This document shows, in pieces, positions 53,092 through 60,955 of a stretch of DNA of 64,000 nt. The notes beneath the pieces are model-generated. The model was not told where the DNA came from, did no database searches, and saw only the letters and a program-made list of their open reading frames with translations. Source of the DNA: Opitutaceae bacterium (GTDB lineage: Bacteria; Verrucomicrobiota; Verrucomicrobiia; Opitutales; Opitutaceae). Each line of letters opens with the position of its first letter. The first letter of the stretch is position 1. The position numbers and the translations under genes were made by a program. The stretch is taken from the NCBI GenBank assembly GCA_016795565.1, contig JAEUGW010000011.1, positions 1-64,000 of the forward strand, read 5' to 3'.

Positions 53092-53967
53092 TCAACCGAG
53101 AAACCCCTGGATCTCCCGCAGGCATTCCTGCTCTGCATCCTCGAGCACGTAGTGCCCCGCGTTCTCAAAATAATCAGACTGTGCCGCCGGCAGGAGTGCT
53201 TTCCAACGATTGTAGTAATGTCGGTTGAAGCAAAAATCCTGGCCGCCCCACAAAATCCGCACCGGGCGATCGCGCAGCAGGCCGAGTTTCGATTCGACCT
53301 CAGCCAACGCCCGGTCGCTGGCACTGCCCTTGCCTGACGGGATATCGACCACGAAACGATGGGTGGCGATGCGATTGCCCCAGTTGTTGTAAGGATACAA
53401 GAAACCGCGTCTCACGTCCGGTGTCAGCGGGCGCGTCACGGACATCCATGTGGCGGGTCCGGCAAAACCGTTGAGACCGCGCACCAGCCACTCCCCGACA
53501 ACCGGTGCCCGGCACAGCCGGATGCGCCACGGGACCACGGTATCAGCAAAGGCGGCCGTATTGAGGATAACCACCCGTCCAAGCTGGTCGGGTTTCGCCA
53601 AGGCCGCACCCAGCCCGATCGGCCCGCCCCAGTCATGCACGATTAAATGAATTTTGCGCAGGTTCAGGCTGTCGAGCAGCAGTCGCAGGTTCCTGATGTG
53701 CTCGCCCAGCGTGTAATTGAAGTCCTGGGGCTTGTCTGAGAGCCCGCAACCGATGTGGTCAGGCACGATGCAGCGGATATTCCTGCGCAAGCCCAGAACC
53801 AGATTTCGGTAATAAAACGACCAGGTCGGGTTGCCATGGACCATCACAACGGCCTCGTCGCCGGTGCCCTCGTCCACATAGCTCAGACCGCCCCGCCCCG
53901 TATCGAACCGCTTCGGCTCGAACGGATAGATGGCCTTCAACCAAGCGGGCAATTCGGGCGCACTCAT
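53092..53967 (-). CDS. OleB-like alpha/beta hydrolase (haloalkane-dehalogenase fold)
   Basis: A 291-residue alpha/beta hydrolase. The signature HGNPTW (44-49), nucleophile Asp112-Trp113 in VHDWGGPIG, and catalytic His272 (AGHYVLEDAEQECLREI) follow the haloalkane dehalogenase/OleB layout. OleB in head-to-head olefin synthesis decarboxylates a beta-lactone, and that role is suggested here only because an OleA-like gene lies directly upstream; it could instead be a dehalogenase. The ATG at 53967 has GGAGG 9 bases upstream. The upstream part of the open frame is encoded by an interspersed repeat. Confidence 0.83.
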   Translation of the reverse strand: MSAPELPAWLKAIYPFEPKRFDTGRGGLSYVDEGTGDEAVVMVHGNPTWSFYYRNLVLGLRRNIRCIVPDHIGCGLSDKPQDFNYTLGEHIRNLRLLLDSLNLRKIHLIVHDWGGPIGLGAALAKPDQLGRVVILNTAAFADTVVPWRIRLCRAPVVGEWLVRGLNGFAGPATWMSVTRPLTPDVRRGFLYPYNNWGNRIATHRFVVDIPSGKGSASDRALAEVESKLGLLRDRPVRILWGGQDFCFNRHYYNRWKALLPAAQSDYFENAGHYVLEDAEQECLREIQGFLG

Positions 53968-54097: not shown

Positions 54098-55135
54098 TCA
54101 CCACTCCACGGCCAACATGAGACTGTTAATACCGCTGCCGATGCCGAGCAGCGCGGCTTTCTGCCCCGGCTTGAGGGCGCCCTTGTCCGCCGCCAGCGCG
54201 AGCGCGGTCGGCAACGCGGCCGAGCCGGTGTTGCCGAGCGTTTCGAAGGTCGAGAAATCCTTCGCCAAGTCCAGCCCCACGGTCTCGTAGAGCTTCCGAC
54301 GGTGCGTGCTGCCGACCTGGTGACAGACGAAGTGGTCTGGTGTGGCCTTGTTCCAGCCGGTCTCTTGCTCGAACTTCTGCCAAGTCCGGCGGGCCACCTC
54401 CACGCCGGCGATAAGCAGTTGTTCGGAATCGGTCTCCATCTGCAGCTCCTCGCCAGCCGTGTCGCCTTGGCAGAGTTCGCTGTGCTGTGTGGCAGACAGG
54501 AATGCCCCGGCCACCAGCCGCTGTTTCCGCGCGCCGGCCGGCAGCAGGTCTTCGTGGCAGACGATCGCACCCACCGCCCCCGATCCGATGGTCAGGTTCG
54601 CGAAGAACGGTTTGATGCCGTTGCGGTCCAGCGGAGCCGTCAGCAAATGCTGGATGGTGCGCTCCACCAGCGGCCTACCGTTCTCGCCCGCGACAACCAT
54701 GCCGCACTTGATCTGGCCGGCATCAATCATGGCACCGAGGGTCACGAGCCCGTTCAGGAAACCCAGGCAGGCGTTCGACAGGTCGAAGATCTGGCAGCTG
54801 GCCCCCAGCCCGATCTTGTGATGGGCAAACGAGGCCGTCGCCGGCTCGAGCATGTCGCGGGACACGGCGCAATGGATGAAGGCCTCCATCTGCTCCGCCT
54901 TGAATCCGGAACGCCGCAGCACGGCCCGGCCCGCCTGCGCGCTGGCATCGGATGGCTTGGTGCCGAGCGGCCATTGGCGGCGTTCCTTGATGCCGGTCAT
55001 CAGCTCCAGCCGCCCCGCCGGCAGTTTAAGGCGCTCATACAGCGGCCGCAGGCGCTCCTCGATCACGACCGAGGTCCAGACCTCGTCCGGCAGCACCGCG
55101 GCCAGGGACTCAATGCAGGCGTGACGGAAACGCAT
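54098..55135 (-). CDS. OleA-like thiolase-fold condensing enzyme
   Basis: A 345-residue ketosynthase III-type enzyme. Cys123 (LSNACLGF), His272 (CHQVGSTHRR) and Asn302 (LGNTGSA) form the catalytic triad. Glu97 in SRDMLEPATAS lies 26 residues before the cysteine, the same spacing as the Glu117-Cys143 pair that defines OleA in Xanthomonas; the His-Asn spacing of 30 is also the same. The sequence around SRDMLEP, SNACLGFLNG and LLGIGSGINS resembles OleA more than FabH. OleA joins two acyl chains head to head. The gene is 3 bases after the FabI-type gene. OleC and OleD are not in the window. Confidence 0.85.
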   Translation of the reverse strand: MRFRHACIESLAAVLPDEVWTSVVIEERLRPLYERLKLPAGRLELMTGIKERRQWPLGTKPSDASAQAGRAVLRRSGFKAEQMEAFIHCAVSRDMLEPATASFAHHKIGLGASCQIFDLSNACLGFLNGLVTLGAMIDAGQIKCGMVVAGENGRPLVERTIQHLLTAPLDRNGIKPFFANLTIGSGAVGAIVCHEDLLPAGARKQRLVAGAFLSATQHSELCQGDTAGEELQMETDSEQLLIAGVEVARRTWQKFEQETGWNKATPDHFVCHQVGSTHRRKLYETVGLDLAKDFSTFETLGNTGSAALPTALALAADKGALKPGQKAALLGIGSGINSLMLAVEW

Positions 55136-55138
55136 GGC

Positions 55139-55951
55139 CTATTGCTCCGGCCGCATGGCCAGCCGGATGATGTCCTTGTCGAAGAAATTCGAACCGAGTC
55201 CGGCATCCACGGTCAGGGTCGTGCCGTTGAGGCCGCTGCTGCGTTCGCTGAGCAGGAACAGGGCGGCGTTTGCCACCTCCTGTGTGTCCAGATTGCGCCT
55301 GCGGTAGGTGAGCTTCTCGGCGTAGAGGTAGCTCTCAATATAGCCCGGGATGCCGGCCGACGCGCTGGTCTTGAGTGGCCCCGCCCCAACGACGTTGAAC
55401 CGCACCTCGCTGTCGGAGCTGAATGATTTCGCCAGGAACCGGCTGCTCGACTCCAGCGCCGCCTTGATCGGCCCCATGTAGCCGTAGTTGTCCGGGGTGA
55501 CATGCAGTGATGAAATACCGATGGTCACAACGGAGGCATTGCGCGCCAGGTGCGGCTTCAAGGCATTGGCCAGCTCGACCAGCGAGAACGCCGAGATGGC
55601 CGTCGCCTGCAGGAAATCCCTCCGCGGTGTGCCGTGGAACGGTTTGAAGCCTTCGCTGTAATTGGCGAACGCAACCGAGTGCACCACGCCCTGCAATGGC
55701 GCGTGACCGGCTGCGGCGACAGCGGCGGCCAGCTTCTCGCAGGCGCCCTCCTGCTCGACGTCGCAGAGAAACACCGGCCGACCGGCCAGCAGCGACTCCA
55801 GTGATTTCTTCCTCGCCTCCGAGCGCACACTGTAGAGGACCTTCGCTCCCTGCTCCTCCAGCGCCTTCGCGATGAACCAGGCGACGCTCTTCTTGTTGGC
55901 GACGCCCATCACGAGGAAGGTCTTCCCCGAAACCTGAAGGAAATCCGTCAT
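55139..55951 (-). CDS. FabI-type enoyl-ACP reductase
   Basis: A 270-residue SDR of the FabI type: an N-terminal VMGVANKKSVAWFIA cofactor loop, AHSVAF-like HSVAFANYSEGF and the catalytic Tyr156-x6-Lys163 pattern in DNYGYMGPIKAALESS. The C-terminus has AGPLKTSASAGIPGY and GLNGTTLTVDAGL. It should reduce the double bond of enoyl-ACP; whether this is a full reductase for the cluster or an isomerising variant is open. The start overlaps the dehydratase gene by 4 bases. Confidence 0.87.
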   Translation of the reverse strand: MTDFLQVSGKTFLVMGVANKKSVAWFIAKALEEQGAKVLYSVRSEARKKSLESLLAGRPVFLCDVEQEGACEKLAAAVAAAGHAPLQGVVHSVAFANYSEGFKPFHGTPRRDFLQATAISAFSLVELANALKPHLARNASVVTIGISSLHVTPDNYGYMGPIKAALESSSRFLAKSFSSDSEVRFNVVGAGPLKTSASAGIPGYIESYLYAEKLTYRRRNLDTQEVANAALFLLSERSSGLNGTTLTVDAGLGSNFFDKDIIRLAMRPEQ

Positions 55952-56397
55952 GTCGTGACCTGTCCCTCGGGTTTCTTCCAGGCGACCGCGAACTCGACGT
56001 TCATCACTTTCCGGCCCTCGGGCGTCCTGATGAGGCCGGTGAGAAAATGAAATTCGCCGACCGTCTCCTTGCGCTTCACCTCCATGAGGACGGTGTCGCC
56101 GGGATAGACCGGCTGCCGGAAGCGGATGTCGGAAACCTTGCTCAGGAGCGGGACTCCCCCGCCCTGCCCGGCGGTCCCGGCCATGAGCTTGGCCATCAGG
56201 CAGGCGCCGGTCTGGAATACGGATTCGCTGAGCAGCACGCCCGGCGTGATCGGCGCGCCCGGGTAGTGGCCCTTGTAGAAATCCTCGTCCGCGCGCCAGG
56301 TGCGTTTCGCGACCAGCACCTCGCCTTCGTGTGAGACGATTTCGTCCACGAACAGGAACGGTGCGCGGTGCGGGATGAGCTTTTCGACTTCGGTCAT
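55948..56397 (-). CDS. FabZ-type 3-hydroxyacyl-ACP dehydratase
   Basis: A 149-residue hot-dog fold dehydratase. His44 in KGHYPGAPITPGVLL and Glu58 in LLSESVFQ give the FabZ catalytic pair with the usual 14-residue spacing. It removes water from 3-hydroxyacyl-ACP to form enoyl-ACP. The start ATG at 56397 gives the family N-terminus VEKLIPHRAPFLFVDEI. It is 7 bases after an FAD oxidoreductase gene and overlaps the FabI-type gene by 4 bases, so they form one operon. Confidence 0.92.
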   Translation of the reverse strand: MTEVEKLIPHRAPFLFVDEIVSHEGEVLVAKRTWRADEDFYKGHYPGAPITPGVLLSESVFQTGACLMAKLMAGTAGQGGGVPLLSKVSDIRFRQPVYPGDTVLMEVKRKETVGEFHFLTGLIRTPEGRKVMNVEFAVAWKKPEGQVTT

Positions 56398-56404
56398 GGG
56401 GTAT

Positions 56405-57853
56405 TCAGGCGGAAGCCATGGCGGTTCGCTTCTTGGCGGCAAGGGCCTTGTCGATCTGGTTGGCCACGATGACGCCGTAGTTGATGGTGCCCAGCCAGCC
56501 CGACATGATGATGCCGACCGAGCCGGCATGATACAGGCCCGGCAGCTGCTTCGGCAGATCCATCGAGACCTTGAGGCCTTCGAACTTGGTGCCGAATGAC
56601 GTGCCGGCCCAGTGCCGGGTGTAGCGCTCGATGGTCCGCGGAGTTGCGGCCTCCATCCACTCGATCTTGCCGCGAATGTCCGGGATGTGTTTCTCCAGCG
56701 CGGCGATCGATTCGCTGATCAGCCGCTGCTTCTCCGCGTCGTATTGTTCCGGCGTCAGCGCATTCCAGTCCGCATACTTCGCGTTGATGGAAACCACGAC
56801 CGTGTAGCGGTCGGAGCCCGGGCGCGTGTCCGGGTAATACAGGGAGAACGTCCGGCTGGTCGTGTGCAGGTCGACGAGCTTCTCGCTGGAAAACACCGGC
56901 TCGTCGGAGGTGAAAACCAGATCGCCGATGTGCGGCAGGGGCTCGCCCTTGCGGATGCCGAGATACACCTGGCAGGAACTGCTGTTGACGCGCACGGCCT
57001 TGGTCTCGGCCACGAACTCCGGGGTGAAGCTCTCCTCCCCGGCCAGGCGCAGAATGGTGTTCTTGATGTTGGCGTTGGAGAGCACGGCCTCGCAGCGGAT
57101 GGCGCGGCCGTTGGCGACCACGCCGGTCACGTGCCTTGCCCCGTCGCGTTCTTCGGTCAGGATTTTCTCCACCCCCACATGCTTGCGGATCTCGACGCCG
57201 TTGGCCTTCAGCTCCGCTGTCATCTTCCGGATGAGCACATCGCTGCCGCCCTGGAAGGTGTAGACGCCCTTGCTCATGAAGTTGGAGAACACGATGCCGA
57301 AGGTGATCGCCGGGTCGTCCAGGGTGGAGCCGTTGGCGTAGGCGATTGGCTCCATCAGCAGGCGCTGGACGTCGTCCCGCCCCGGGAAATACCGCTCAAA
57401 CATCTGGCCGGTCGTTTCCTGGTTGTTGTCGTAGAAATTCATCGCGCGCAGGTCGGTGAAGAACCGTTCGACGGTCTCGGCCGCCACCCGGAACTTCTCC
57501 ACCAGCAGCCGCGTGAAGTCCTCGCGGTCGAAAGTCGTGTCGATCGAGAACTGCGGGTTGATGAACCGCACGCCCTTCAGTTGCACGATCGAGTCGGCGA
57601 TGTCCTTGCTCCAGTATTTCCGGCAGGACTTGATCATGCCAATCGGGAAGCCGTGGAGGGAAATATCGAAGATGTGGCCGCCTTTCCGGGTGAACCAGGT
57701 GGCGAGTCCCCCAAGCTGGTAGTGGTGCTCCAGCAGCAGCACCTTGTGGCCGCATTTGGCCAGGACGTTGGCCCCGGTCATGCCGCCCAAGCCGCTGCCA
57801 ATCACCACGATGTCGTAGTGGTCTTCGATTCCTTTGAGCCAGTCGTAAGCCAT
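56405..57853 (-). CDS. CrtI/phytoene-desaturase-type FAD oxidoreductase 2
   Basis: A 482-residue flavoprotein. The ADP-binding motif [12 protein letters not shown] is at 18-29, followed by the CrtI-type stretch [29 protein letters not shown]. The C-terminal FAD-binding phrase is [22 protein letters not shown]. These motifs fit the CrtI/CrtISO/retinol saturase family, which acts on polyene chains (desaturation, isomerisation or saturation). With fatty-acid enzymes beside it, a lipid polyene is a plausible substrate. A second related gene lies upstream. It is not close enough to tell which reaction each does. Confidence 0.87.
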
Positions 57854-57903: not shown

Positions 57904-59337
57904 TTACCCGCGGGTCGAACTTTGCAGCACGTGGTAATTTGCCATCGAAATGCCGCTCAACATCGCGCCAACAATGCCCAGGAAACCTTGATCCGTGCCG
58001 CACAGATAGAGGTTCTGCAGATGGGTCCTGCCGTTGCGGATCTTCCGGGGTGCGCCGTAGATGGCGCCGTTCAGGTGCCCGGTGAACTTCTTGATCGTGC
58101 GCGGCGTGAACATGTCCGTCGCCACCTGCGCGGCGGCCAGCACGGTGTCGTCCACCCCGGGCAAAAAGCGCCGGGCACTGCGCACGGCGGCCTCAAACCA
58201 CTGCTGTTTGTCGGCCTGGTATTGCTCTTCCGGTAAATGCGCCCAGCGCTCGTAACTGGCCAGGCAGGTGACACGGAAGATCCCCTCCGGCAGACGGTCT
58301 GAGCCAAAGTCGAAGTTGTTTGGGAGGCAGATGACCCCGCTGCGGGTGTCCACCTGTTCCCGGGCCTGCGCGTATTCGAAGCGATCCGAATCGTTGAAGA
58401 AGATGATGGTGTCGTCACCCCAGCCCCACTCCGCGGGCTGGCGGTTGAATACGCTGATGGTTTCGATGAACGAGAGCGCACCGGTGTTGGCGTCGGCCTC
58501 CGCCGTGTGCACAGGCCCGCACAGCCTCATGGTCTCGGGATAGCCGACCGACGAAATCACATGTTTCGCCGTCACCTCGCTGCCGTCGTCCAGCACCAGC
58601 CGCGCCGCCCGGCCCTGTTCCTCGGTGATCCGCTGCACGCCGCATTTCATCCGGCGTTCGCCGCCAGCGGAGCGGAACTTGTCGAGCAGGACGCGGATGA
58701 TGACACGCACGCCCTCCAGCGGCCGGGCAAAGCCCTCGAGGAAGAGCGCCTTGAACATGATGACGAATTGTCCGAACTCCATGTCCCGCTCCTGCGCGCT
58801 GCCGTAATACATCACCGGGCAGAAGATCATGTCGGCCAACAGTGGATTCGAAATGTGCTGCGCCACGACCTCGCGGGCCGACAGCGGCTTGGCGTCGAGC
58901 GAGACGTCGTCGTAGGTCCTCACCAAGGCGACCAGCCGTCGCCAACCGGCGGCCTGCGCCGGGAACTTCGCCGCGACCTCGGCATCCAGCACCGCGAAGT
59001 CATTCGTGAACTTCAAGGTTGTCTCCCCGCGCGGGCCGAATGCGATCCTCGACTGTTTCTGCGGACACAGGGCAAATTCCTCGCGCTCGATGCGCAGCTG
59101 GCGCAGCAGTTTGACCAGCGGCGTGCCCTTCACGCCGGGTGCCACGTAGTTCGTCATGGCGTGCAAGCCGACGTCGTATTTTCGGCCGGCCATGCTGTAG
59201 AAGCTGTTCAGTCCGCCCGGGGCGTTGTGGCGTTCAAAAATGCAGACCTTTTGGCCGAAGTGCGCGAGGCGGATGCCCGCCGCCAGCCCGGACATGCCGG
59301 CGCCGATGATGGCTACATCGTAATGGGAGTCTTTCAC
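57904..59337 (-). CDS. CrtI/phytoene-desaturase-type FAD oxidoreductase 1
   Basis: A 477-residue flavoprotein with an ADP-binding motif [18 protein letters not shown] (11-28), [13 protein letters not shown] as the second glycine motif and [20 protein letters not shown] near the end as the C-terminal FAD contact. It belongs to the same family as the downstream flavoprotein but is clearly diverged. The start is a GTG at 59337, right at the edge of a palindromic element, with no strong Shine-Dalgarno; the only alternative is a TTG inside that element. Its substrate is probably a lipid or polyene attached to or released from the neighbouring ACP. Confidence 0.85.
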
Positions 59338-59341
59338 TTCA

Positions 59342-59446: not shown

Positions 59447-59701
59447 TCAGGCCTTGGCGGCGAACTTCGGGGTCAGGTATTCCGCGCAGCTCTCCAGCGA
59501 GGCGAGATGCGAATAATCAGCCTCCGGCACCTCGATGCCGTGGCGCTTGCGGAGTTCCATCACGATGTCGAGGAAGTCCATCGAATCCAGCTGCAGCTGG
59601 TCGCGGAGGCGGATCTCAGGCTTGATGGCCGAGAGGTCCTCGTCCGGAGCGATGTCGGAGATGATGTCGATAACCAGCTTCTTGCAGTCGTCTTTCGTCA
59701 T
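59447..59701 (-). CDS. Acyl carrier protein of the lipid cluster
   Basis: An 84-residue carrier protein with the phosphopantetheine serine at Ser40 (LDSMDF) and the usual helix pattern (LVIDIISDIAPD ... FLDIVMELRKRHGIEVP). It would carry the growing chain for the enzymes in the cluster. It is 15 bases after the ketosynthase stop codon on the same strand. The C-terminus ends in KFAAKA. A housekeeping ACP gene is not seen in this window. Confidence 0.93.
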   Translation of the reverse strand: MTKDDCKKLVIDIISDIAPDEDLSAIKPEIRLRDQLQLDSMDFLDIVMELRKRHGIEVPEADYSHLASLESCAEYLTPKFAAKA

Positions 59702-59716
59702 GATGTGTAGCGGGAG

Positions 59717-60955
59717 TTATGCGGCGAATCGTTTGATAATCAACGTGGAATTTATGCCCAGCATCCCGAAGGAATTGTTCAGGATGACGTCGATTTTGGC
59801 CCCGGATTTTGGATGATTAATCACCAGGCCCGGTATATCACATTGCGGGTCAAGCTCATCGACATTGATGGTTGGATGCACCACCCCGTCCTCAAAGCTC
59901 GGCAGGTTTCCGGCGAGTTCGAGGGCCCCGGCTGCGCCCATGGCGTGCCCAATGAAACTCTTGGTGTTGTTGATATGCGGCGGCGCGCTCCGGGCCTTGA
60001 AGACCTCGGCAATGGCCTGGCATTCCTGAATGTCGCCCTGCGGCGTGGAGGTCGCGTGGGTGTTCACCAGGTCGATGTCCTCGATGGTCATGCCGGCATG
60101 GGCGATGGCCTTGCGCACGCATTCAGCCTGGCGCTCCGGGTTGGGCAGCACGTAGTCGGTGGCGTCGGAGTTGACATGGTAGCCAGCGATCTCGCCATGG
60201 ATCCTGGCGCCTCGGGCCAGGGCGTCCTCAAGCCGCTCCAGCGTGTAGATGCAGCCACCCTCGGAGATGACGATGCCGTTGCGAGCCTTGTCGAAGGGGC
60301 GGCTGGCCTTGGTCGGATCGGCGTGGGCGGCGAGTGCGTTCTGGCTCTTGAAGCCGGCAAATATCCCGAAAGTCTGCGGGCTTTCGCTGACCCCGCCACC
60401 AAGTGCAAAGTCGATCTCGCCGAGACGCAGCATCTGGGCGGCGTGAATCAGGCCCATGTTGCCGGCGGCGCAGGCCGCGCCGATCGTGTAGGCCGGCCCG
60501 GTGATGCCGAGATTGAGCGACACCTCCCCCGCGGGATTGTTGGCCACGGTCCGCGGGTTGTGATGGTGCGTCCAGAACTTCGTATCGTATTTGAACTGCG
60601 AGATGTTGTAGACCTCGTTCTCCGTCTCGACATTGCCGTGTTCCGTGATGCCGAGGTAGATGCCGACACGGCTGCGGTCGCGGGCCTCGAGATTCACGCC
60701 GGCATCGGCCAGGGCTTCGCGCGCGCAGTAGATGCTGATGCCGCCCGCGCGCGTGCCGATCCGAACATCCTTCTTTTTTTGGTATTTGAGCGGGTCGAAC
60801 GTGCACATGCCCGCCGGATGCCGGCCCATGAAGCGCACATCGACTGCCGTGATGCCCGACACGCCATTCAGCAGATTCCGGCGGAACTCGGGCAGCGAGT
60901 TGCCGTTCGGGGCGGTGAGGCCGATGCCGGTGATGACGATGCGCGTTTGCTTCAT
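59717..60955 (-). CDS. FabF-type ketosynthase, first gene of the lipid cluster
   Basis: A 412-residue beta-ketoacyl-ACP synthase II-type enzyme. Cys162 (IGAACAAGN), His300 (NTHATSTPQGD) and His337 (KSFIGHAMGAAG) form an intact Cys-His-His site. The segment FWTHHHNPRTVANNPAGEV before the cysteine is unusual for housekeeping FabF as I know it. It extends ACP-bound chains by two carbons. It begins 67 bases from the divergent galE gene and is the first gene of the eight-gene cluster. Confidence 0.92.
   Translation of the reverse strand: MKQTRIVITGIGLTAPNGNSLPEFRRNLLNGVSGITAVDVRFMGRHPAGMCTFDPLKYQKKKDVRIGTRAGGISIYCAREALADAGVNLEARDRSRVGIYLGITEHGNVETENEVYNISQFKYDTKFWTHHHNPRTVANNPAGEVSLNLGITGPAYTIGAACAAGNMGLIHAAQMLRLGEIDFALGGGVSESPQTFGIFAGFKSQNALAAHADPTKASRPFDKARNGIVISEGGCIYTLERLEDALARGARIHGEIAGYHVNSDATDYVLPNPERQAECVRKAIAHAGMTIEDIDLVNTHATSTPQGDIQECQAIAEVFKARSAPPHINNTKSFIGHAMGAAGALELAGNLPSFEDGVVHPTINVDELDPQCDIPGLVINHPKSGAKIDVILNNSFGMLGINSTLIIKRFAA

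Follow-up and report, generated by a model that had tools for sequence, protein, structure and literature searches.

The window, that is, the whole 64,000-nucleotide stretch of DNA from an Opitutaceae bacterium that was analysed, contains eight genes that run in one direction on the minus strand, from position 60955 down to 53092, in the order FabF, acyl carrier protein (ACP), FAD1, FAD2, FabZ, FabI-like, OleA, and OleB-like. The first gene (59717–60955) encodes a FabF-like beta-ketoacyl-ACP synthase of 412 amino acids (PF00109/PF02801), whose translation shows the Cys and two His motifs, and which scores 312 bits against the fabF model TIGR03150, under the cut-off of 493.75. It is followed by an 84-amino-acid ACP (59447–59701), recognized as an open reading frame with a DSM phosphopantetheine motif and 62–96% identical in relatives with the cluster. 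The next two genes encode flavin oxidoreductases of the carotenoid isomerase/desaturase family (PF01593). FAD1 (57904–59340; the start is uncertain, with an open frame from 59379) finds its best NCBIfam match in the CrtISO model TIGR02730 at 79.5 bits, and the very conserved FAD2 (56405–57853; 482 amino acids) matches CrtISO at 96.6 bits, both far under the cut-off. The closest solved fold to FAD2 is that of a gamma-carotenoid desaturase (4rep, TM 0.74), a match that would fit desaturation and isomerisation alike and does not decide between them; from their sequences, FAD1 and FAD2 may be desaturases, isomerases, or reductases. In some Opitutaceae, a proline-rich, probably secreted protein of approximately 460 amino acids is encoded between FAD1 and FAD2 (L044:5049–6413 and L047:10872–12299).

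Downstream of FAD2 lie the genes for a FabZ-like 3-hydroxyacyl-ACP dehydratase (55948–56397; 149 amino acids; PF07977), which reaches 94 bits against the fabZ model NF000582 (cut-off 113), and for a divergent FabI-like enoyl-ACP reductase (55139–55951; 270 amino acids; PF13561, E 1.6e-56), whose best FabI model gives 171 bits (cut-off 370); the genome's second-best hit against a FabI model reaches 76 bits. Inspected by eye, the FabI-like protein retains both Tyr and Lys in its Y-x6-K motif and has Ile at the position of E. coli FabI Tyr146. This SDR was also considered as a candidate OleD and rejected, since it matches FabI models and the OleD match of the genome lies on contig 37. The FabZ and FabI-like genes overlap by 4 bases at the FabZ stop, and a gap of 3 bases separates the FabI-like gene from OleA; because of this spacing, at least FabZ, FabI-like, and OleA are likely to share one transcript. 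OleA is the seventh gene, and the last encodes the OleB-like alpha/beta hydrolase that the earlier note had placed in the window (53092–53967; 291 amino acids counted from the ATG, in an open frame from 54024), with an HDWGG nucleophile motif and matches to PF00561 and haloalkane-dehalogenase-type models. It is the neighbour of OleA throughout most of the order, as well as in other classes, and is presumed from its sequence to be the beta-lactone decarboxylase. No radical SAM gene is found among the eight genes of the operon. Candidatus Didemnitutus mandela (L241) and Candidatus Synoicihabitans palmerolidicus (L225) keep the whole eight-gene operon.

The gene at 54098–55135, also on the minus strand, encodes a head-to-head acyl condensing enzyme of 345 amino acids. 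The translation contains Glu97, Cys123, His272, and Asn302, with spacings of 26 residues between Glu and Cys and 30 between His and Asn, and in a sequence alignment these residues line up with the catalytic residues of Xanthomonas campestris OleA (3row; Glu117, Cys143, His285, and Asn315 in the reference numbering), so that the positions and spacings given in the earlier note are exact. Glu97, Pro98, Cys123, His272, and Asn302 are invariant among 31 relatives. The NCBIfam model NF006720 scores the protein at 434.3 bits against a cut-off of 285, an OleA of the PDB matches it with E 2e-60, and its AlphaFold2 model (pLDDT 92.5) superimposes on OleA crystal structures with a TM of 0.94 at 35% identity, compared with approximately 0.82 at 18–22% identity for FabH structures. 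A FabH-type structure, which the earlier note had named as the finding that would count against its reading, is thus not what the model suggests in this whole-fold comparison. The FabH of the same genome, encoded on contig 30, has Leu at position 97 and retains the Cys, His, and Asn; therefore, only the Glu, among the four residues, separates OleA from FabH. In a published survey of OleA proteins, only two lacked the Glu-Pro pair (PMC7064751). Judged by family model, predicted fold, tree, and the diagnostic Glu97–Pro98 pair, the protein is a genuine OleA, in agreement with the OleA-type assignment made earlier, and by analogy it is predicted to condense two acyl chains to a 2-alkyl-3-keto acid.

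The earlier note had described this enzyme as lacking OleC and OleD, which holds for the window but not for the genome. In the 99.99% complete genome of the bacterium, an OleC-family protein is encoded on contig 37 (93455–95110), with 652 bits against NF006754 (cut-off 478) and the next match of the genome at 116 bits; against two narrower OleC models, it scores 555 and 452 bits (cut-offs 900 and 850). Directly downstream of oleC lies a gene for an OleD-like reductase, whose best NCBIfam match is OleD at 364 bits (cut-off 580), and which is the sole gene in the genome to reach E 1e-70 with the OleD model. The genome search proposed in the earlier note thus gives OleC and a probable OleD, and the first of its two alternatives, that OleC and OleD lie elsewhere, is the one supported. 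On gene content, the Ole pathway is very probably complete but arranged in two loci, oleA–oleB and oleC–oleD.

The two loci are inherited together. Among 132 genomes of the order, OleA, OleC, OleD, and FAD2 are all present in 88 and all missing from 21, and many of the remaining 23 are incomplete assemblies. The block FAD2–FabZ–FabI–OleA–OleB is retained in many families of the order, FabF–ACP–FAD1 stands upstream of it in most members of the bacterium's own family, and in the Opitutales loci examined OleC–OleD stands on its own, so that the split between OleA–OleB and OleC–OleD appears, from these gene orders, to be old; in one genome (G065), FAD2 lies less than 5 kb from OleC–OleD. FAD2 is present in cultured Opitutales, namely Geminisphaera, Cerasicoccus, Pelagicoccus, and Coraliomargarita, and the FAD2 alignment, run against named genomes, picked out 80 loci, nearly all from Opitutaceae or other Opitutales, the closest being that of an Opitutus sp. 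(91%); a FAD2 search of plasmids returned distant phytoene desaturases only. MAGs of the order with only 0.8–1.3 Mb (G025, G026, G029, G044, G059, G107, G109, and G120, for example) often retain OleA and OleD together with OleC or FAD2, and the pathway therefore seems hard to lose.

The association extends through the phylum. Across 388 genomes, FAD2 occurs in 109, FAD1 in 113, and OleA in 111; all three are present in 100 and none in 268, FAD1 accompanies OleA in 105 (14 genomes being discordant), and FAD2 accompanies OleA in 103. Outside the order, 43 genomes have both OleA and FAD2, 270 have neither, and 12 are discordant. The p-values for such co-occurrence are inflated by the relatedness of the genomes, but both presence and absence recur across many families. 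For the 16 FAD2 loci outside the order that were mapped, the flanks do not include OleA, and one other class of the phylum has OleA directly beside FabF–ACP–FAD1, with FAD2 elsewhere. The genes are found joined in a bin titled Nitrospirae (L250; the phylum of this bin and the next is taken from the record titles), in which OleA–OleB–OleC–OleD–FabF–ACP–FAD1–FAD2, a FabG-like gene, FabZ, and FabI follow one another on one strand within 11 kb; this run on contig SCTG01000155, in which OleB stands between OleA and OleC, holds all ten genes (OleABCD, FabF, ACP, FAD1, FAD2, FabZ, and FabI) in addition to the FabG-like gene. A second Nitrospirae-titled bin (L257) has OleC–OleD–FabF–ACP–FAD1–FAD2 in a run that reaches both ends of the contig. 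The OleA tree places the Nitrospirae-titled OleA together with the flavoenzyme-linked OleAs of the phylum (support 0.87) and separates them from those linked to Pfa synthases.

Only three OleA genomes among the 388, all from a single family (f52), are devoid of both FAD1 and FAD2. Two of these (L173 and L174) have, directly beside OleA, genes for a KR protein and for a 2,320-amino-acid KS-KS-AT-FabA protein, each with PfaA as best match; in the third (G241), no Pfa gene is found within 20 kb around OleA. Within the phylum, OleA thus seems to come with either of two suppliers, a Pfa-type synthase of polyunsaturated fatty acids (PUFA) or the set of type II fatty acid synthase (FAS II) genes and flavoenzymes. 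The genome that holds the window has no Pfa synthase; Pfa models give only cross-matches of KS and AT domains, the best of them, with 250 of 1010 bits, to a type I ketosynthase encoded on contig 26. As a possible Pfa-like supplier this ketosynthase was discounted, since it is fused to a serine-palmitoyltransferase-like domain. Its gene (L119:8637–12737) encodes 1366 amino acids with the serine-palmitoyltransferase/BioF-like domain at the C-terminus and is close to a gene for inositol-1-phosphate synthase; the locus is perhaps one for a sphingolipid-type or inositol lipid.

In established Ole biochemistry, OleA joins two acyl chains, OleD reduces the resulting keto acid, OleC forms a beta-lactone, and OleB decarboxylates it. 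We propose, with a probability of roughly 0.7, that the bacterium has a complete OleABCD head-to-head olefin pathway, encoded at two loci and equipped with its own fatty acid supply line in the form of a Pfa-independent FAS II. The secondary FAS II (FabF, ACP, FabZ, and FabI-like) would elongate acyl-ACP, with FabG and FabD borrowed from primary metabolism, while FAD1 and FAD2 would insert several double bonds, or preserve them by isomerisation. From two of these chains OleA would then form a 2-alkyl-3-keto acid, which OleD would reduce; OleC would close the beta-lactone, and OleB would remove CO2, leaving a central double bond; from two C16:4 chains, C31:9 would result. An olefin pathway with its own chain supply is favoured because OleA, OleC, OleD, and FAD2 are co-inherited and joined in L250, and because a Pfa-type synthase stands beside OleA in place of FAD1 and FAD2 in two genomes of f52. 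That the OleABCD set is complete and makes an olefin is very probable; that the FAS II/flavoenzyme set provides it with polyunsaturated chains, as the partner genes suggest, is probable. Most likely, a long membrane hydrocarbon is formed in the bacterium by head-to-head joining of two chains, and the product is probably similar to C31:9. A C31:9 polyene has been reported from Shewanella, Geobacter, and Desulfotalea. Desulfotalea psychrophila makes C31:8 and C31:9 hydrocarbons although no PUFA pathway is known from it; phytoene-dehydrogenase-like genes, of which it has three, among them the consecutively numbered DP2405 and DP2406, occur in its FAS II clusters (PMC2649909), and the C31:9 made by Geobacter bemidjiensis is identical to that of D. 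psychrophila (PMC3098273).

It is also conceivable, though unlikely, that OleABCD is complete and that the FAD and FAS II genes yield something other than methylene-interrupted polyunsaturated chains, such as conjugated polyenes, mono-unsaturated chains, or double-bond isomers, or that they act on the hydrocarbon after OleB. FAD1 and FAD2 do score best with carotenoid isomerase models, and flavin enzymes with the fold of FAD2 carry out desaturation, isomerisation, and amine oxidation; however, a Pfa-type PUFA synthase stands beside OleA in place of the FAD genes in two f52 genomes, and the C31:9 of D. psychrophila points to polyunsaturated chains (PMC2649909). Far less credible is the second alternative of the earlier note, in which OleA and OleB act without OleC and OleD and yield a ketone or hydrolysed keto acid. 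In its favour, the window contains neither OleC nor OleD, but since both appear to be encoded elsewhere in the genome this alternative loses its basis; they are also co-inherited with OleA across the order and adjoin OleA–OleB in L250. Equally improbable is a variant of FAS II in which the protein would serve as a second FabH, initiating chains from acetyl-CoA and malonyl-ACP, as an operon full of FAS II genes might suggest; Glu97, the fold comparison, and the separate FabH with Leu speak against FabH for this gene, as do the adjoining OleB and the co-inherited OleC and OleD.

The olefin pathway proposed here resembles the OleABCD systems of Xanthomonas campestris and Shewanella oneidensis in the Glu-Cys-His-Asn set and fold of OleA and in the presence of OleB- and OleC-type proteins and a probable OleD in the genome; it differs in that the genes form two loci, with oleA–oleB inside an operon that also encodes FAS II proteins and two carotenoid-desaturase-like enzymes. 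As in the combination of Pfa and OleABCD in Shewanella and in f52, a dedicated chain supplier lies beside OleA or is inherited with it, but here the supplier consists of separate type II enzymes and flavoenzymes rather than a multidomain synthase. Within the same class, an oleABCD operon for long-chain alkenes has already been reported from freshwater Opitutae MAGs, whereas the genomes mapped here have their Ole genes in separate loci; the available text of that report makes no mention of FAS II or flavoenzyme genes beside oleA (PMC5673642). The clusters of Kuenenia stuttgartiensis and D. psychrophila, compared by their published description, likewise combine FAS II genes with phytoene-dehydrogenase-like flavoenzymes, but the present operon lacks genes for radical SAM, phenylacetyl-CoA-ligase-like, or membrane proteins and includes FabI-like, OleA, and OleB (PMC2649909).

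Automatic annotation would assign ladderane lipids to similar clusters of Verrucomicrobia. The two phytoene-dehydrogenase-like genes and the FAS II genes do resemble the Kuenenia clusters (PMC2649909), and 'ladderane' clusters, of unknown function according to the available text of the reports, have been described in that group (PMC7298704, PMC9902471). Ladderane synthesis is nevertheless the least tenable reading, given the lack of a radical SAM gene in the operon, the tight tie to OleABCD, the restriction of known ladderanes to anammox bacteria, and the acyclic polyenes, without ladderanes, that D. psychrophila makes with a similar cluster (PMC2649909). We suggest tentatively, at slightly under even odds, that the 'ladderane-like' clusters of Verrucomicrobiota do not serve ladderane synthesis and encode instead a Pfa-independent polyunsaturated FAS II with two carotenoid-desaturase-like flavoenzymes, possibly operating oxygen-free, that supplies OleABCD with the chains of polyene hydrocarbons. 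Relative to the available text of these reports, what is new is the predicted tie of OleABCD to such clusters, equated here by description, and the exchange with Pfa. A product is thereby offered for clusters labelled 'ladderane' in non-anammox bacteria, and the proposal bears on the synthesis of C31:9 without a Pfa synthase and on possible anaerobic polyunsaturated chains, a question since Rattray and co-workers (2009). As the gene set is small, conserved, present in cultured Opitutales, and complete in one Nitrospirae-titled run, it is open to lipid and genetic tests. A bin titled Phycisphaerae (L258), whose 15.9-kb contig lacks OleA, carries FAD2–FabZ–FabI at identities of 64%, 37%, and 52%, respectively.
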